Source: Picocystis sp. L7 (taxonomy: Eukaryota > Chlorophyta > Picocystophyceae > Picocystales > Picocystaceae). Taken from it: a DNA stretch of 64,000 nt. A model generated the notes under the pieces. The model had not been told where the DNA came from. It saw only the letters and a list, made by a program, of their open reading frames with translations, and searched no databases. The stretch spans positions 186,001 to 250,000 of the forward strand of contig QXJR01000018.1 of assembly GCA_020975725.1 (NCBI GenBank), in the 5' to 3' direction. This document shows, piece after piece, positions 36,530-46,369 of this stretch (within the stretch, counting starts at the first letter, position 1; the number at the start of each line of letters is the position of its first letter). The position numbers were made by a program, and so were the translations under genes.

Positions 36530-37456
36530 TCACCAGCCATATTTCGCCTGTGTTTCTTTTCTCGTTTTCATTCCCTGTGCTCTGTTCTCCTTGATCGAGA
36601 GCTCCCGTTGCTTTGCTTCGTAGTAAAGTGAGGTAATTTGGTGTTTCCTTTTCGTCGTTTGCTCGGGACGTGGTGCCCCACGCATGACACTCAATCCTGG
36701 TGCTGCTGCCTTGGATTCGGTTGGATTGTGCCCGATGATGGGTTTGCTGGTAAGTTCAGCTTGTTTGATCTCAACTATGTTGGGGGCCTCCTGGACAAAC
36801 GTCCCTTTCCTTTTCCTGTTCATTTTCCTGTGCTCGGCTGTGATGAGGGACGTCAAAACCTCGCTTTCTGACTTGCGCGGCCCAGCTTCGGGATCAATCG
36901 TATCCTGAGTCGGCGCAACGGTGGGTCCTTCCACAGGACTGTCGGCATCAACTCTGTACAGAGAAGAGGCATGGTATGACTTCGTACATGGAGCGTCCAC
37001 CTCCTTTTCGTCACGCTCAGTGTGTTCAGCTTCGTTCGATGTCCTTGGGGTTTGCGAGAGCGTACTTCTGGAGCCGTGGAACGTTTGTTTGGGCGGAGGA
37101 AGCGTTGCCAAGAAGTCTAGACCAGTTTTGGGCTCGGTTGCTGCGGGAAACAGCGGTCCTGAGTGCTGCAAACGAACGCCTACGTCAGCATGGTGATCAG
37201 AATCATCCTTCGGAAACCGAATCGTCGCAGATGCACGCACCGTTTGAACCCGAACCTCTGATTCTTTCGGTGGGACGATCGGTCGTCCGACCTTCACCAC
37301 GCGTTTGGGTTCGGCGTGTGTCGTCTCCTGTTGCACCTGCATCCTTCTTCGACCGTCTCCTGGTTCTTCTTCCGATGCCTTACCGTTCGCATCGTCCGCC
37401 TTCGCAAGCTCTTCCTCGTCGGAAGAACCATAGCCGCCTGCGAGAAGCGCTTCCAT
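36530..37456 (-). CDS. PRCC-like nuclear protein
   Basis: The gene encodes 308 residues from ATG 37456; a longer frame would require GTG. It starts MEALLAGGYGSSDEEEL, like the short acidic YxSSDEE start of PRCC proteins. It ends in the conserved tail KRKHQITSLYYEAKQREL...RKETQAKYGW, which closely matches the human PRCC C-terminus (KRKHQLTYLIHQAKERELEL, ending AKYGF). The middle is Pro/Ser-rich and disordered. PRCC associates with spliceosomal proteins and in animals with MAD2B. It stands convergent with the unknown coiled-coil gene, and a retrotransposon begins 236 bp upstream of its start codon. Confidence 0.8.
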   Translation of the reverse strand: MEALLAGGYGSSDEEELAKADDANGKASEEEPGDGRRRMQVQQETTHAEPKRVVKVGRPIVPPKESEVRVQTVRASATIRFPKDDSDHHADVGVRLQHSGPLFPAATEPKTGLDFLATLPPPKQTFHGSRSTLSQTPRTSNEAEHTERDEKEVDAPCTKSYHASSLYRVDADSPVEGPTVAPTQDTIDPEAGPRKSESEVLTSLITAEHRKMNRKRKGTFVQEAPNIVEIKQAELTSKPIIGHNPTESKAAAPGLSVMRGAPRPEQTTKRKHQITSLYYEAKQRELSIKENRAQGMKTRKETQAKYGW

Positions 37457-37687: not shown

Positions 37688-37692
37688 CACGT
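37688..37692. repeat. 5-bp target-site duplication, left copy
   Basis: CACGT immediately before the 5' LTR is repeated at 45147-45151 after the 3' LTR. This is the footprint of integrase-mediated insertion and fixes both element ends. Confidence 0.9.
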
Positions 37693-38128
37693 TGTGACGC
37701 CCCGTGCCTCGTCACAATATTAACTTTGGTATAAACACGCTGTGTCTCGGTGAAGACCCTACAGACCGGACAGAATCGCAGGGTCTCTACCAGGTCCCTT
37801 ATGGACAGGGTCCCCCCGTAGTCAATCGGTCAACGATTCGACTTCCGACAGCCCCTATATATGGCACACGCTGTGTTGTAATAGATCAGATCCCTTTTGA
37901 CTTGACTAGCCGTGCACCTCTTGACACCTTCGCTAGCCACAAGTCCGGATCATCAACAACACGTTCCAACTCTCGCTCTTGGAAGAAGACATCTACCTCC
38001 AGCAACCCCGCAAGTCACCGTTGCTCTTCGAAGCCAAAGTTCAAGCAGATTCCAAGAAGGCCCTCCAAGAACCCCTTTGTGGACCCACTTAAGTGTTATT
38101 CTGTGTTAACATAGTGGGCAGCACCACA
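37693..38128 (+). repeat. 5' LTR (436 bp)
   Basis: It starts TGTGACGCC and ends ACCACA, so it has TG...CA ends. A TATA box (tatatat, 37856-37862) supports a promoter about 160 bp in. The first 24 bp contain a 7-bp inverted repeat, TGTGACG...CGTCACA. I saw no differences from the 3' LTR. Confidence 0.95.
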
Positions 38129-38164
38129 ATTAGAAACTGAATACAAGTTTGGAAATCTATAACA

Positions 38165-39694
38165 ATGGCACCGAAGTCCAAACCAGCAGCTTCCACCGGC
38201 GAAGAAGGTGAAGGAAGTGATGTGCAAAGTTTCGCATCCGTGGAAGATGTTTCCAGCCTCCGCGAAACGGTGAATCAGGTCACCGCAAGTATTCAAGACC
38301 AGCTGGAAAAGTTTCAGACTCAATTCGAGACCCAAGGACAACAAGCTTTGGCCCTCCGTACAACGTTGGACCAGATCCTTCGACACCTCGAACCACCTGG
38401 GACGACCTCCGTCCCTTGGTCTTCGACCCAGGGAAACGCCCCAGTACCAGCCCCAAACCAGCCCCGGGCAGGGATACCCCAGGATTCACCCAGGAACCCA
38501 ACCCAGGATTCCCCAGTATCCCTTCCTACTGGACTCCAAAACCAGACCTTACAGAAAGCTTCCAGAGCTTCCTTGGGATTGCAACAGATTGCTTCGAGAG
38601 TGGGCAAATACAAACCCGAACAGCCCAGAAAGTTCAATCTGGACCAGGGACAGGAAGCCACTGCCCTACAAATTGTTACTCTTAAAGGACAGTGGAAAGC
38701 CTTTGGTATGAAGCAAAACTGGAACGAAATGGAGATTCTCGCTACGATACTCACCGAAGGCTTGGCTGGAAAATATTATGATTGGGCCAACAATCAAGAA
38801 CAGTTTGAGTCCACACAATTCAGTAGCCTTCATGATTTCTTCCAGCGGCTTGCGAAGTTCCACCTGGCTGAAGAACCGATCACGAAAACGCTCGTGGACA
38901 TACAACGCGCGTGGCAGCGACCGGACGAATCCCCGCAAGAATTCGCCACCCGTCTTGATGGGTATCAAGCTGTACTCAAGCACTTTGGACAGGAATCAGG
39001 AGCCCAACTCCATGATGATAAGAAGCAATTGCAATTCCTGACAGGCTTGCAACGTTACATATCGCAGCAACTCCATACCGCTTTCATGGGAAAAGCTTTG
39101 GAAATGGACAGGACAACTTTGTCCATACTCACAGAAATGCCGTTCGCCCGAATCGTCCAGGCCGCGCAAGCGATATGGCAGCAGCAGCAGCAAAACAAAT
39201 TGCGTGCTACGATCGTCCGCGACAAGCCGCCCTCGTATTCGATGCCGAACGTCACGAAGCCACAATCAGTCCATGCTACCACCCAAGATGAGGAGATCGA
39301 AAACTTTACGAAGCGCCAGCTTTCCTTCCGCCAGCGATTCCTACATAAAATTCTTACACCCGATCAGATCAAACAAGCAAGAGAATTGAATTTATGTCTC
39401 TGCAGAATCAAGAAAGCAGTGGTGTGTCTCTCCAGCGACCACATCGCCCGTGACTGCCCGTTACGAAAAGTGATGGCAGGAGATAGCGATCCCCCCGCGG
39501 AATATCCAGGACATCATCAGTCACACTTCGTTGAAAATGAAATCTCTGAAGATAAAGATGAAGAAGATCCTCAGGAAGACATGGATCCCGAGAGTTGTTA
39601 CTTTCTGGACATGGACCTTTCCGATCCCGTGTTGGAACAGATTTACTGTGAAGAGGAGGAGGCCCCGGAAAACGGTCAGGCTCTGTCTCACTGA
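38165..39694 (+). CDS. Retroelement gag region
   Basis: An open frame of 509 residues beginning 37 bp after the 5' LTR. The N-terminus is charged, the middle has the helical retrotransposon gag core (WKAFGMKQNWNEMEILATIL, WQRPDESPQEFATRLDGYQ), and a Cys/His stretch near the C-terminus (CLSSDHIARDCP) resembles a nucleocapsid zinc knuckle. The end is acidic. It would form the particle that packages element RNA. Confidence 0.85.
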   Translation: MAPKSKPAASTGEEGEGSDVQSFASVEDVSSLRETVNQVTASIQDQLEKFQTQFETQGQQALALRTTLDQILRHLEPPGTTSVPWSSTQGNAPVPAPNQPRAGIPQDSPRNPTQDSPVSLPTGLQNQTLQKASRASLGLQQIASRVGKYKPEQPRKFNLDQGQEATALQIVTLKGQWKAFGMKQNWNEMEILATILTEGLAGKYYDWANNQEQFESTQFSSLHDFFQRLAKFHLAEEPITKTLVDIQRAWQRPDESPQEFATRLDGYQAVLKHFGQESGAQLHDDKKQLQFLTGLQRYISQQLHTAFMGKALEMDRTTLSILTEMPFARIVQAAQAIWQQQQQNKLRATIVRDKPPSYSMPNVTKPQSVHATTQDEEIENFTKRQLSFRQRFLHKILTPDQIKQARELNLCLCRIKKAVVCLSSDHIARDCPLRKVMAGDSDPPAEYPGHHQSHFVENEISEDKDEEDPQEDMDPESCYFLDMDLSDPVLEQIYCEEEEAPENGQALSH

Positions 39695-39765
39695 GTGGTG
39701 GACAGGCAGAGCAAAGCAAACTAGACACCACTCATGGCACAGATCCCGCGATCGGTAACGATCAG

Positions 39766-42700
39766 TTGGTCACGACCTTACAATCTTTTCATGTACAGCA
39801 CCAGCCCATGACACGAACGGTCACCAAGCCACCAACCGCTGACATTACTTATATCGATACGCTGGAACACTGCAGATACTTTATAACTAGTGGTCAAGCC
39901 ACTCCACCTGATGAAAAAGGATTTATGGAATTACAGGTGCTTTGGGACACCGGAGCATCGCACAACTTCATCAGCAAAACATGGCTGGATCGTTACGAAA
40001 AACAATTTGGTACCTGCCCGGTTGTTTCAAGAAACGTACATTATCGCATTGCTGATTCTCCCGTGGAACGCCATACGTACGCTGTACGACTGAACATCAG
40101 CTTGGGAAATGGAATCAAAACATCAGTATGCTGTTCTGTTTTGCCAGAGACTCCTACCTATGATTTACTGTTGGGAAAATTATGGATGCAACAGCATCGC
40201 ATCGTCCTGGATACTTATCGCAACTTTGCTACTGGACATTTCAAAGGAAAGGTGATAGGAATACATGGAGAACATGGTGTCAAACATCAACACCCTGCCA
40301 GTAACATCCTTCATAATATTGAGGAGATCAAGTCTCAGCTCAAGAAATGCAAGCAAGAAGGTTTGAGACCTTTGTTTGTTCAGGTGCAATTGGTGTCTCA
40401 GGCTACCAGTAAATATGTGGAGAACTCCCACAGTGACAGCAAGGACAAACTGTACAGTGTCCATGACTGTGCAGGCGGCAGCCTAGCTGACCGCGATCGA
40501 GCACTTCAGCAAGTTGAGGAATTAAAGAAACAGTATCACTTTCTGTTCAAGGAATGGGAACAGGATGACTTACCACCGGTACGGTCAGATTTCGATCATC
40601 GCATTGAATTGCAGCCTGGATCGACGATTCCGCATCGTAATTATTATCCTATACCAGCAAAAATGCAGAATGAAGCAAGGCAACTGCTAGCTAAGTTTCT
40701 AAATGCTGGGTTTCTTCGATCGAGCAAATCGCCGTTCGCAGCTCCAATGATGCTTATTCCTAAGAAGACCCCTGGACAGTGGCGTATCGTATTCGACTTC
40801 CGAGCGCTCAACGCAATCACTGTCAAGGATCGTCATTCGATACCGCGCAGCCAAGAATTATTTGACAGTTTGTATGGAAGCAGAGTGTATTCTACTTTTG
40901 ATCTGCAGGATGGTTATTACCACATGAGAATCAGGGAAGAGGACATTGCAAAAACAGCAGTTACCACACCCTTTGGACATTATGAATGGGTAGTAATGCC
41001 CATGGGATTATGCAATGCCCTGCTACTTTTCAAAGATTTGTGAATCATGCCTTTTCAGAGTTGGTACATCAATGGTCATCCCTGAAAGTGTATTTAGATG
41101 ACTGCTTGATTCATACTGCTGATTACGCATCGCATGTGCGCAGTATTCAACGCTTCTTTGAACTCTGTCAACAGCATCACATAAGACTGAAGATGAGCAA
41201 AGCATATTACTGTCAAACAGAAGTGGAATTTCTTGGTTATGCCCTTCACAATGGTACACTCACTCCTGCTCAGCACTTGTTGGAAGCCATACGTAATGCG
41301 CAACCGCCTCAGTCCATAAGTCAGGCTCGATCTTTTCTAGGCCTGGTGGGTTTTTATCGGCAACTGATACCGCAGTTCGCACGTATTGCAGCCCCAATTA
41401 CAAAGCTCACCAAAAAGGAAGAACAATGGTGCTGGGATAGTGAACAGCAGCAGGCCTTTGTGAAACTAAAGGATTACTTTTTACATGGTGAACCGCCCGT
41501 TGTACGCATCTTTGATCCAGATAAACCCATCAGAGTACATACCGATGCCAGCAACCATGCCGTGGGAGGATGCCTATCACAGTTACATGGCAAGAATTGG
41601 CACCCTGTAGCTTTTTATTCACAGGTGCTGAATCCTGCACAACGTCGATATTCGACCACCGGAAAAGAAACGCTCGCTGTGATTTCATGTTTGCGTAAAT
41701 GGAAGTTCTACCTGCTGGGTCAACATTTCCATTTGTTTACAGATCATATTGCTATACAATACCTGAAAACAAAAAGAGCAGAACAACTCACTAGAGTGGA
41801 ACAAGGCTGGATCGATATACTTTCGCAGTTCGATTATACGCCCCAGTATGAACCTGGACCTAAGAATGTCGTTGCGGATGCAATCTCCAGATGGAACACT
41901 TATCCTACACTTACTATATTGGAATTATGTGCTGGAGGCACAGGAACATTACTCCATGCACTTGCCGCGGAAATGCCAGATTATGTACGCGTATCGTACT
42001 ACGCTGTGGAACATGATTTATCAGCAGCTAATTCATTGAAATCAGCTTTCGCACACGTACAGAAATTACGACCGCATACATTTCTTGGATCAGTGGACAA
42101 CATCAACTGTTTTGGAACAACCATCGCAGACGCAAAACTACAGGAACTACCCCAAATACATTTGTTGTTTGCTGGAGTTCCCTGTCAACCTTTTTCTCGC
42201 GCAGCCGGTTCCAACGCAAAAGGTTTGAAAGATCCAAGACAGTGTTTCACACAAGCAGCAGAGCTCATACAGATAGTAAAGCCTCACAACTTTGCAATTG
42301 AATGTGTCCCATTTGCAGAACATTTGCAAAAGGACTTGGAGACAGTCAATACAATGTTGCAATGCAAACCGCAGGTACATCATCTTGATCGATACACCGC
42401 GCAGAAACGTATCCGTTGGCTATGGACAAACATTAAGCTTGACAATGAGCAGATCAGCAAAACATGTGCAGAATCCGCCCCGCTCTGGATCGATTGCTTA
42501 ATCAACGCTGTCCCGCAACTCGATGTGAACGGTGTACCCCGCAGAAAGTCAGCAACATTAATGGCTTCATCTAATACCTACAGTGACAGAAACAAAGCAA
42601 TGTGGGTGCATGATACCACGAGAGCAATGAGATTACGACCGATGACGCTGGACGAAAAAGCAAAATTGATTGGATTGCCATCAGCCAGCCTGTTGATGGG

Positions 42701-44699
42701 TAACCAAGAACAAAAGCAACGCTTTCTCGGCAACGCAATTCCAGTTCAGTTCTTGCAGCTCCTTCTTAAACATTTTATACCAAGGTGGGTATTTCATAGT
42801 GGGCCTACCACTATTCAGTTTCACACAGATATGAATCAACCGAGTACTCGGGTTGACGACGTATGCGACAGTGTCCAGTTGGCACATACGATCGACAGCT
42901 ACGTTGTGTCAGACGAATTGTACCAACGCCTACTTCAAGCAGCAGCTAATGATGACAACTATGATGAGTCTTCAGGTTTACAAACTGTAGAGGGTCGCAT
43001 CGCTGTACCGAACGATGCCGATCTACGAAAGCACCTGATGTACATCAACCATGACCTACCCACTGCAGGACATCCTGGACAGAAAAGGATGCTGGAACTG
43101 ATGAAAAGACAATATATTTGGCCTGGAATGACACGTGACATCAAGGAGTATGTGGAAAGTTGCAGAGCATGTCAACTTGCTAAACCGTCTTACCGGCGTA
43201 AAGCACATTTACTGCAGCGTATGCCTACACCCACAGGACCATTCACAGATGTTTACTGTGATCTCACAACAGACTTGCCACTTACAACTACAGGATACAA
43301 CTCAGTATTTGTGATTGTGGACAAATTCACCAAGATGACAATTTATATTCCAACAGTAAAAGCAGCCACAGCCTCCATGTTAGTGCATCTCTTTCTAAGA
43401 CACGTTATTTGTCATTATGGAGCACCAGAAAGGCTCTTCACAGACCATGACACGAGGTTTGTTGGAGAAATATGGCATGATTTTGGATTGATGCTCGGTA
43501 CCAAACTGCATCGAGGTACTCCTTATCATCCACAATCTGATGGACAGACCGAACGACAGAATCAAACATTGAAAGCAGCCTTGCGCACAATGATGGCACA
43601 TCCAACAGACTGGGACAATCTGTTACCGATGATTCAATTTGCGCACAACAACGCCGTAACAGCTTCGACAAAATATTCGCCATTTTACTTGCATATGGGC
43701 AGATCGCCGCGCTTACCGACGCTCGTCACCGCCTGGCAAACCATCAGCGCCCGTAGCGAAGAAACTCAGCAGCGACTCGCAGACGTTTACCATGAAGTAT
43801 TTGAGAATATGGATGCTCAGTACTCCAGAATGGAAAAATATGCAAATCAGTCAAGACGCGAAAAGCTATCGCAGTTTGCTGTGGGCCAACTTGTCAAGTT
43901 ACGTAGACTTGGTCGACTCGCAAAGCATGCTACTCCTTTCTGTGGACCTTTCAAAATTCTGGATGTACTACCCACTGGAGCAATTAAATTGGATCTTCCT
44001 GCAGGTTCACGCATCAGTGCATGGGTGAATGTGGAACACTTGGAACCATTTTCAGGTCCCATTCAGTCCTCAGGAGATGTTGTCTCACCCTCTATGCCAT
44101 CTGACACTCAGAGTACCACTGTTGAACAGTACATACTCCGTGATTGGGCCACTATACCGCCTCGATATTGGGTTCAATGGAGAGGACTAGAAGGAAGCAA
44201 CCGTGAATCGTTCCTCGCAGAACAACAGGCACCAGGAGGTGTACAAGCTATATTGGACTGGGAATATCAGCATGGTCCCATTCCAGAACTCAACATCACT
44301 CAAGGTGACACATCCTTACAGCGAAGTCGTCACCGCGAGCAAGTTTCAGAGTACAAGTACAAGGTTTACCGCCAGTATTTTCCAATTCTGCATGACACTT
44401 GGACAACAGAACATCCAATGAAGACTTTTACACTTACAGGCCGCCATCGCTCCGTCAGACCTAGCCAACCAATGGTATTGGATCCTCAAGAAAATTTGTT
44501 GTATCGGATTGTTTGCAAACGTTTTGTGGATGAAACAGATACAGAACGGTGGTACAAAGGAAAAGTGATGGATTTTACTAATGATGGATACAGAATCAGA
44601 TATGAACAAGGTGATGTAGAATACATATCACCTGAAGAACTTGTCAGTTTGCTCCAAGATACCCAGAAAATCTTTCAAACGAGGACGCTTGGTATCTAA
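39766..44699 (+). mobile_element. Retroelement pol region (PR-RT-RNH-DNMT-INT-tail)
   Basis: Protease is marked by VLWDTGASHNF (about 39937-39970). Reverse transcriptase has VYLDDCLIHT as its catalytic block, and RNase H begins IRVHTDASNHAVGG. The methyltransferase domain follows at about 41905-42780. Integrase has an H-H-C-C zinc region (about 43040-43180) and a DDE core including LFTDHDTRF and PYHPQSDGQTERQNQ (about 43240-43570). The tail has a chromodomain-like YWVQWRGLEGSNRESFLAE (about 44168-44260) and a Tudor-like RWYKGKVMDF...EYISPEELVSLL segment (about 44545-44655). The region is carried with about one break. Confidence 0.9.
41905..42780 (+). other. Cytosine-5 DNA methyltransferase domain inside pol
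   Basis: About 290 residues between RNase H and integrase. Motif I is LELCAGGTGTLLHAL (S-adenosylmethionine binding). Motif IV is FAGVPCQPFSRAAG with the catalytic Pro-Cys-Gln (about 42180-42190). Motif VI contributes the Glu in AIECVPF. A target-recognition-like region follows, then motif X, FLGNAIPVQFLQLL (about 42727-42758). These are the ordered motifs of DNA C5-methyltransferases, which methylate CpG or other cytosines. It lies in the same frame as integrase, so it would be made as part of the polyprotein. Confidence 0.9.
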
Positions 44700-44710
44700 G
44701 GAGGGGGGAC

Positions 44711-45146
44711 TGTGACGCCCCGTGCCTCGTCACAATATTAACTTTGGTATAAACACGCTGTGTCTCGGTGAAGACCCTACAGACCGGACAGAATCGCAGG
44801 GTCTCTACCAGGTCCCTTATGGACAGGGTCCCCCCGTAGTCAATCGGTCAACGATTCGACTTCCGACAGCCCCTATATATGGCACACGCTGTGTTGTAAT
44901 AGATCAGATCCCTTTTGACTTGACTAGCCGTGCACCTCTTGACACCTTCGCTAGCCACAAGTCCGGATCATCAACAACACGTTCCAACTCTCGCTCTTGG
45001 AAGAAGACATCTACCTCCAGCAACCCCGCAAGTCACCGTTGCTCTTCGAAGCCAAAGTTCAAGCAGATTCCAAGAAGGCCCTCCAAGAACCCCTTTGTGG
45101 ACCCACTTAAGTGTTATTCTGTGTTAACATAGTGGGCAGCACCACA
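44711..45146 (+). repeat. 3' LTR (436 bp)
   Basis: Identical by eye to the 5' LTR at a fixed 7018-bp offset, preceded by the purine tract ggaggggggac. It ends 172 bp before the plastid L6 start codon, so its promoter could read toward that gene. Confidence 0.95.
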
Positions 45147-45151
45147 CACGT
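45147..45151. repeat. 5-bp target-site duplication, right copy
   Basis: CACGT directly after the 3' LTR, matching 37688-37692. Confidence 0.9.
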
Positions 45152-45318: not shown

Positions 45319-46369
45319 ATGGCGCTGTCTGCCGGCCATTCGAGCACTTTCCTGGGAGGAAGCGCACTCTCTCAACGCTCCAGAAACCGACCTGGAGCCG
45401 CACAAGCACGCCAGGGCCTCGTCGTCCGGTGCGGAGAGAGCCGCATCGGAAAGCTGCCGGTGACCGTGCCTAGCAACGTCAACGTGGACCTCAAAGGACA
45501 GTACCTCAAAGTCAAGGTGCGCCGAACGAAGCGAACGGACACGAGCCGATGGAACATGCAAGCGGAGGTGGAGATGGCGGGCCTAGGAGGACGGCAGACC
45601 GCGTCGGACGTACGGACGGAGGTCGGCTGCGACGTACTTCCCTCTCCCTGCCCACTACCGTCGCCGAGCGCAGGCGATGACCTTTGCAGAAGGTCAAAGA
45701 CCTCTCCTTTCCAGCAAGCGGACGGTGATTCAGCCTTCGAGTGGAACGATGGAACTCGTCCTTTGCATGGTGGGTTCACTGGCTAACCTGCTCTTTTACT
45801 CGCGTTGTAGGGTCCCAAAGGCGAGTTGGACTGGACCTTTCCGGACCAGATTGCCATAACCTTGGTAAGTGATCGAAGCGATGCGAGATGTGGTCATGGC
45901 AAAGGAACCAGCACCATCTTGAACCAGAAACGCTGACAAAAAATGTACTCTTCCGACGTCGTAGGATGGCAACATCTTGACCTTCAAGAAGAAAAACGAC
46001 GATCGCAAATCTAGGCAGCTGCACGGTCTGTGTCGGACACTGGGATCCAACATGGTCAACGGTGTGTCTGCGGGCTTTGAGAAGAAGCTTCTCCTGGTTG
46101 GTGTGGGATACCGGGCGGCGATGCAGGGCAAAAACTTGGTCCTGAACTTGGGGTACAGCAATCCTGTGACGGTCACTCCACCCGAGGGCGTGTCTGTGGC
46201 AGTAGAGAAGAACACCACCATCGTCGTATCTGGTTGCAACAAGGAAATAATCGGTAACTTTGCTGCCATAGTACGCAGCAAGCGTCCACCGGAGCCCTAC
46301 AAAGGAAAGGGCGTTCGCTATGCCGATGAGTATGTTCTGCGCAAGGAAGGCAAAAGTGGGAAGAAGTAG
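45319..46369 (+). CDS. Plastid 50S ribosomal protein L6, nucleus-encoded
   Basis: Proposed exons are 45319-45516, 45811-45864 and 45965-46369 (218 aa), all phase 0. Introns are 294 bp (GTGCGCCG...GTTGTAG) and 100 bp (GTAAGTGA...GTCGTAG). The 38-residue N-terminus (Ser/Arg/Gln-rich, ending VVRC) is a transit peptide. The mature part reads [65 protein letters not shown] and LVGVGYRA, the bacterial L6 signature. The last block contains the usual [15 protein letters not shown]6 sits at the GTPase-associated base of the large subunit. Nuclear location of this gene is typical of green algae and plants. A retrotransposon ends 172 bp upstream. Confidence 0.95.

Follow-up and report, generated by a model that had tools for sequence, protein, structure and literature searches.

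Organisation of the element

The stretch analysed, referred to here as the window, was the 64,000 nucleotides at positions 186,001 to 250,000 of contig QXJR01000018.1 of Picocystis sp. L7 (assembly GCA_020975725.1). Analysis of the plus strand between 37693 and 45146 of this window revealed it to be a single Ty3/Gypsy long terminal repeat (LTR) retrotransposon, as shown by its Pfam domains, LTRs and target-site duplication, which encodes a C5 cytosine methyltransferase (MTase) domain between the RNase H and the integrase. Its features, including open reading frames (ORFs) and the reverse transcriptase (RT), were as follows.

37688..37692, no strand: target-site duplication CACGT, left (sequence)
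37693..38128, + strand: 5′ LTR, 436 bp, TG...CA, 100% match to the 3′ LTR
38165..39694, + strand: gag ORF, 509 amino acids counted from the ATG (ORF listing)
39931..40221, + strand: aspartyl protease region (PF08284/PF13650/PF13975, E 7e-4 to 2e-3, below the curated cut-offs)
40756..41031, + strand: RT, N-terminal part (PF00078, E 2e-13), in ORF 39652-41043; the frame breaks at its end
41004..41243, + strand: RT, C-terminal part (PF00078, E 8.3e-10), in ORF 40986-44699, whose frame differs from that of the N-terminal part
41433..41831, + strand: RNase H (PF17917/PF17919, E 2.9e-31 and 7e-31)
41898..42797, + strand: C5 cytosine methyltransferase domain, DNMT3-type by profile and modelled fold (PF00145, E 4.8e-17, 62.8 bits, cut-off 22)
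43014..43190, + strand: integrase H2C2 zinc-binding domain (PF17921, E 6e-21)
43251..43532, + strand: integrase core, rve (PF00665, E 7.5e-7, 29.8 bits against a curated cut-off of 32.6)
43902..44051, + strand: SH3-like (Tf2-1) region (PF24626, E 0.003, below the cut-off; stronger in copies L023 and L029)
44508..44654, + strand: Tudor-type domain (PTM/DIR17-like) at the Pol C-terminus (PF21743, 29.4 bits against 27.2, C-terminus scanned alone)
44700..44710, + strand: candidate polypurine tract, purine-rich, directly 5′ of the 3′ LTR (from the sequence)
44711..45146, + strand: 3′ LTR, 436 bp, 100% match to the 5′ LTR
45147..45151, no strand: target-site duplication CACGT, right (sequence)

The 1237 amino acid ORF 40986-44699 encoded, in order, the tail of the RT, RNase H, the MTase, H2C2 and rve, with the Tudor-type domain last. 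An earlier note on this DNA had described a C5-MTase within an LTR element, in frame with the integrase and preceded by RNase H, and the order of the Pfam domains in this ORF agreed with that description. The boundaries and the perfect LTRs given there were exact, and the profile search proposed there as a check returned the PF00145 match listed above. The anatomy was therefore correct as described; the description had omitted the break of pol within the RT, the DNMT3 type of the MTase, the Tudor-type end and more than 100 further loci.

The pol of the window copy was not intact. Two ORFs, 39652-41043 and 40986-44699, meet inside the RT without sharing a frame, so that this copy, as assembled, could not yield a complete Pol; the frame break may be due to an error in sequencing or assembly. 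Single open pol frames were present in other copies. No Pfam match was found for the gag ORF at E 0.01; homologous stretches were found at the gag position in seven of the eight other close copies, the exception being the fetched stretch of L011. The gag and pol frames overlapped, with pol in the -1 frame, both in the window (38165-41043) and in L014 (1273-7829), an arrangement that would be compatible with programmed -1 frameshifting. The Tudor score was slightly below the cut-off when the whole of ORF 40986-44699 was scanned, and PF21743 was below the cut-off in L014 and gave no match in L023, L029 or L019; the C-termini of these copies nonetheless aligned co-linearly. A Pfam scan of the MTase-bearing ORF revealed no match to ADD or PWWP domains.

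The methyltransferase is DNMT3-type

The ordered C5-MTase motifs reported in the earlier note were located in the window MTase: ILELCAGG (motif I) from 41916, the Cys of PCQ at 42183, the Glu of motif VI (ECVP) at 42300, QxRxR at 42402-42416 and GN at 42729. An alignment was made of 27 MTases, including that of the window, from 41 fetched elements or stretches, 14 near-duplicate or broken sequences having been left out. Although 23 of the 27 were merely 33-39% identical to the window MTase, PCQ, the motif VI Glu (ECVP/ECTP), RxR and GN were invariant in all 27. The Gln of QxRxR was present in 26, with Lys in its place in L047, and motif I varied slightly. Motifs I, IV (PCQ), VI, VIII (QxRxR) and X (GN) were in the canonical, unrearranged order, which shows that the enzyme is not a DRM.

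A profile of the 27 MTases was compared with the PDB. The best matches were DNMT3A and DNMT3B (E 4.5e-12, positions 89-311 of 334), and HhaI, DRM, DNMT2 and DNMT1 matched just in parts. An AlphaFold2 model built from the same alignment (pLDDT 84, pTM 0.83) was searched with Foldseek; the best 50 rows were all DNMT3 entries, with a top E value of 1.8e-16 and TM scores to human DNMT3A/DNMT3B of 0.57-0.66 depending on query length. The element MTase is therefore classed as DNMT3-type on its profile and predicted fold. It shares the unrearranged motif order with the catalytic domain of human DNMT3A/DNMT3B, its best PDB relative, but is only 15-19% identical to it in the fold alignments, is embedded in a Pol and has no ADD or PWWP match. 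Motif VI also differs, being ECVP or ECTP in the elements and ENV in human DNMT3A/DNMT3B.

Abundance in the genome

The genome surveyed comprised 20.5 Mb in 30 contigs. Searches with PF00145, with the window MTase and with the MTase of another family gave at least 121, at least 120 and at least 123 scored matches respectively, 108 of the 123 in the last search being without an internal stop. The union of these searches amounted to at least 156 distinct loci (E up to 0.001, some of them fragments; host DNMT genes omitted), and the matches elsewhere in the genome lay in open frames reaching 1,877 amino acids. This supplied the count of related copies that the earlier note had called for. The window family accounted for nine of these loci, including the window, with 76-100% identity. 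The domain was present in all eight other close copies, which answers in part the objection, named in the earlier note, that it might be absent from all other copies of the family; these copies were found with an MTase query, so that MTase-less copies of the family would be missed.

A count less biased towards the MTase, for families other than that of the window, was obtained from Ty3-type RNase H. An MTase lay 0.3-1.2 kb downstream on the same strand at 117 of the 150 RNase H matches listed; none of the nine window-family loci occurs among these 150. Twenty-eight of the other 33 coincided with loci of a second, MTase-less family (matched by eye) and five were left over. The order RT, RNase H, MTase, integrase was found in all 21 elements read (the window and L011-L030, all picked by the MTase search; L029/L030 is a tandem pair and L015 is cut by the fetched stretch). 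Sixteen of the 21 contained long direct repeats with 98.9-100% identity; none was found in the fetched stretches of L011, L012, L017, L018 and L020. Copia elements were also abundant, with at least 150 scored RT matches. Two contigs, C3 and C4, with about 12% of the genome sequence between them, held 67 of the at least 156 MTase loci and 41 of the 150 listed Copia RT matches (counted by eye), marking them as element-rich chromosomes or regions.

The MTase-less family (L060-L062, on contigs C19, C11 and C4) was a second Ty3 family with 33 matches and open frames of up to 2672 amino acids. It encoded a segment of about 190 amino acids, without assigned identity, in the slot between RNase H and H2C2 that the MTase occupies elsewhere. 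By eye this segment seemed co-linear with the MTase, yet homology to a degenerate MTase was not supported: a local profile search scored 2.3, with 5 of 2000 shuffles scoring higher, a glocal alignment gave a z of 0.8 and the AlphaFold2 model had a pLDDT of 40.

Selection and descent

Five MTase pairs in the Ks range 0.5-2, two of them involving L014, had a ratio of nonsynonymous to synonymous substitution rates (Ka/Ks) of 0.07-0.11, revealing the MTase to be under purifying selection in diverged pairs. The RT, RNase H and integrase of the window family had values of 0.02-0.05. Between the window and L014 (Ks >1), Ka/Ks was 0.076 for the MTase, 0.023-0.027 for the RT, 0.024 for RNase H, 0.046 for the integrase and 0.077 for the C-terminus. 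Ks was saturated in many pairs; the less saturated L039-L040 MTase pair (Ks 0.5) had a Ka/Ks of 0.10.

MTase distances among 26 rows correlated with those of the N-terminal part of the integrase (r 0.93; 0 of 2000 permutations as high, a test that is less strict than it appears with related rows), a pattern more readily explained by one ancient acquisition or prolonged co-inheritance than by swapping. Identity of the window family to other families was similarly low across Pol (MTase 38-39%, RNase H 33-42%, integrase 32-35%). The MTase of the window clade formed a long branch. In the RNase H tree the MTase-less family grouped with MTase-bearing families (89/91) and the window clade was without firm placement, so that loss of the MTase in the former is possible and a separate history of the latter likewise possible.

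An alignment of L023 with L028 showed a mosaic: synonymous sites of the RT were (nearly) saturated, while the MTase, integrase and C-terminus were nearly identical. RT segments thus seem to recombine between families, and this mosaic probably arose by template switching.

Methylation signature in close copies

Transitions were counted in six pairs of close copies, each copy being used once and just four families being represented. Transitions per site amounted to 3.4% at CG, 3.5% at CHG and 1.6% at CHH, giving odds ratios against CHH of 2.2 for CG (p 1e-10) and 2.3 for CHG (p 3e-12); transversions in the same pairs showed no significant difference among the three contexts. When C>T changes were polarised in three triples, rates of 1.9% (CG), 2.5% (CHG) and 0.9% (CHH) were obtained, with odds ratios of 2.1 for CG (p 0.004) and 2.8 for CHG (p 5e-6), and the reverse change was not significantly enriched in these triples. 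The excess of C-to-T change at CG and CHG indicates that the copies are probably methylated. Three Copia pairs, all that were available, showed no such excess (CG and CHG together, odds ratio 1.12 versus 2.25, z 2.65, p 0.008), although L054 and L055 among them are 99.97% identical. The samples are of modest size, and only the transversion and Copia comparisons control for coding constraint.

The ratio of observed to expected CpG was 0.67-0.83 in MTase-bearing Gypsy elements, 0.69-0.79 in MTase-free Copia elements (six loci), 0.98-1.01 in three 1.5-kb stretches of the MTase-less Ty3 family, 0.91 in the flanks of the window element and 0.60-0.98 in seven host-gene loci.

Host genes, insertion site and database relatives

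The host genome encoded its own methyltransferases, namely a DNMT1 with BAH domains, a chromomethylase (L003; BAH and chromo domains) and a PWWP-DNMT, as well as a chlorophyll a/b-binding light-harvesting complex (LHC) gene; a further candidate host DNMT lay on contig C20. The earlier suggestion that the host is a different green alga from those already reported agreed with the LHC, chromomethylase and PWWP-DNMT genes and with a neighbouring gene for ribosomal protein L6 that was plastid-type by eye. The element was inserted between two divergently oriented host genes that are otherwise about 410 bp apart:

36530-37456, - strand: PRCC-family gene whose start codon, as judged by eye, is 236 bp from the 5′ LTR
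45319-46369, + strand: gene for ribosomal protein L6 (by eye of plastid type), whose start codon, as judged by eye, is 172 bp from the 3′ LTR

In the protein searches, the combination of RNase H, MTase and H2C2 recurred in two 'ena' sequences (P0001, P0002), and portions of it in three EukProt fragments. EukProt proteins labelled Pavlova_lutheri (P0003-P0005, P0011) matched the Picocystis genome: a stretch of the host DNMT1 was 100% identical over 947 amino acids to one of the proteins so labelled, and a 332 amino acid fragment with that label matched the window MTase at 96%. We regard the label as doubtful, because the host LHC, chromomethylase and PWWP-DNMT speak for a green alga; either it or the source culture may be wrong. 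Literature searches on the label yielded nothing. No identifiable Klebsormidium element was found in the protein searches, which were limited by word and length filters (one of them to the best 8000 candidates).

Nine IMG/VR loci encoded C5-MTases partly similar to that of the element (29-42% identity over short stretches). The ORF lists of two of the nine contained, by eye, no retroelement ORF. A viral origin of the MTase was considered and set aside, as these loci said nothing firm about a donor. In one of the IMG/VR contigs (L063, 2866-4005), motif VIII of the C5-MTase, AQNRKRLYWTNIP, resembled by eye that of DNMT3 and of the element MTases.

Proposed role of the methyltransferase

The reading to which we incline, by a narrow measure of confidence, is that the Gag-Pol of these Ty3/Gypsy elements carries a DNMT3-type de novo MTase that pre-methylates new copies, the host then maintaining the mark. 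The MTase would travel in Gag-Pol, packaged with RT and integrase, and would act on freshly made double-stranded cDNA, methylating it, most probably at CG sites, no later than integration. A copy would thus arrive already marked, and host DNMT1 and chromomethylase could maintain the mark and extend it to CHG. Such a copy would be quiet but alive, tolerable beside genes and a reserve for later expression. Self-methylation by the element is plausible by analogy with two copies of SymbioDIRS-Dnmt3 from Symbiodinium, which methylated CG de novo in yeast, as reported in the part of PMC5890265 consulted.

Several observations weigh against pre-methylation by the element. In the same source (de Mendoza et al., PMC5890265) the Klebsormidium enzyme was inactive in yeast, a result that its authors called inconclusive, and a LINE enzyme was likewise an inconclusive negative. 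The MTase-less family occurs at 28 of the 150 listed RNase H sites, which shows that multiplication in this genome does not require an MTase. Nine very recent MTase pairs, with few changes, were less constrained than the diverged pairs (Ka/Ks 0.16-1.0), as expected of decaying copies. The mosaic pair L023-L028, which was left out of the six, had rates of 7.1% at CG, 3.4% at CHG and 4.5% at CHH, without a CHG excess. In 1.5-kb stretches of the MTase-less family, L060-L061 differed at 10/124 CHG, 6/226 CG and 12/478 CHH sites; the corresponding counts were 9/123, 10/222 and 16/478 for L061-L062 and 1/121, 5/229 and 4/472 for L060-L062, these pairs overlapping in copies and hence not being independent. 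A CHG excess in one MTase-less pair suggests that the host may be the writer, and decay rich in CHG changes implicates the host chromomethylase no less than a DNMT3-type enzyme. CpG depletion was rejected as evidence of self-methylation, since MTase-free Copia elements are equally depleted; the undepleted CpG of the MTase-less family would fit the idea.

The catalytic step could be the same and the selective reason different. The mark might serve restraint or tolerance, new copies recruiting host silencing at once and so limiting damage and copy number, not hiding. The window copy sits in a narrow gap between divergent housekeeping genes, close copies bear the CG/CHG decay signature and 67 of the at least 156 MTase loci are crowded on two contigs with about 12% of the genome, all of which would suit restraint. 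None of this separates it from hiding, however, and young copy groups with 99-100% LTR identity exist; we regard restraint as a minority possibility. A little less probable still is that methylation is driven by the host only, through DNMT1 or chromomethylase, while the element MTase acts on element RNA, on host chromatin in trans, or before integration without leaving a lasting mark. The genes for a chromomethylase, DNMT1 and PWWP-DNMT are all present and the CHG excess extends to a pair that lacks the MTase, but the Copia pairs showed no excess, within the limits of three pairs and two near-identical copies.

Two further explanations concern the domain itself. Independent capture, with every family acquiring its own DNMT3-like gene at an identical position, would account for the long MTase branch of the window clade and for an RNase H tree that does not firmly join it to other families. 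We consider it improbable, as the slot is the same in 21 of 21 elements, MTase and integrase distances are closely correlated and the window family is about as distant from the others in RNase H and integrase as in the MTase. That the MTase fold is a passenger, a spacer or nucleic-acid-binding part of Pol whose catalysis is irrelevant, seems very improbable: something in the slot may suffice, given the segment of about 190 amino acids that fills it in the MTase-less family, but all 27 aligned copies, 23 of them highly diverged from that of the window, retain the catalytic Cys, Glu, RxR and GN.

A bolder extension of pre-methylation by the element, which we put forward tentatively and think unlikely to hold in full, is that DNMT3 became, through one ancient capture, a core domain of Pol across an entire Ty3 radiation in this green lineage. 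Diverse families, down to 33-39% identity, would keep an active writer beside the integrase and, at the Pol C-terminus, a reader of Tudor type. The elements would thus write and read their own mark, pre-methylating cDNA and directing copies to chromatin that bears it, for example on contigs C3 and C4, and the MTase-less family would have replaced or eroded the enzyme.

Comparison with known systems

The principle of retroelements that encode a DNMT was, as the earlier note stated, already known, from a DNMT3-bearing Gypsy element in Klebsormidium and DNMT retroelements in Symbiodinium (PMC5890265, as far as consulted). Among the papers listed in literature searches, judged by title and the abstract text displayed, none reported DNMT-bearing retrotransposons besides PMC5890265 (author correction PMC5931568). 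Enzymes of another kind have also entered Pol: orchid Ty3/Gypsy elements are reported to carry an m6A demethylase domain (PMC9289625), likewise a nucleic-acid-modifying domain fixed in Pol, although an RNA demethylase and not a DNA methyltransferase.

The SymbioDIRS-Dnmt3 and SymbioLINE-Dnmt elements of Symbiodinium share with the Picocystis elements a retroelement-encoded DNMT and a high copy number, and the DIRS versions are DNMT3-type (PMC5890265). By that description they are DIRS tyrosine-recombinase elements and LINEs, whereas the Picocystis element is a Ty3/Gypsy element with an rve integrase.

KnitGypsy-Dnmt3 of Klebsormidium nitens, an LTR Gypsy element with a DNMT3 domain in its Pol (de Mendoza et al. 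2018, PMC5890265), is similar in more respects. In the published text consulted, it too has a DNMT3-type MTase within a Gypsy Pol ORF, in an alga of the green lineage, with the key residues kept, and its Ka/Ks is under 0.2, as in the diverged Picocystis pairs. It differs in having DIRS-like repeats, according to the Fig. 4 legend, whereas the Picocystis element has two plain direct LTRs and a 5-bp target duplication. The host is apparently another one, an MTase stands beside 117 of the 150 listed Ty3-type RNase H matches here, and the Pol of the Picocystis element ends in a Tudor-type C-terminus, which may be a further difference.

The Picocystis element thus joins the known DNMT3-bearing Gypsy elements as a new and unusually abundant case, and the phenomenon is widened beyond Klebsormidium and Symbiodinium. 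The plain LTRs, the apparently different host, the large share of the Ty3 population and, possibly, the Tudor-type C-terminus set it apart from KnitGypsy-Dnmt3. That a transposon should encode an enzyme of the silencing machinery is a puzzle dating from 2018; with MTase-bearing loci, MTase-less Gypsy elements and abundant Copia elements side by side in a host that has DNMT1 and a chromomethylase, that puzzle becomes testable in Picocystis.

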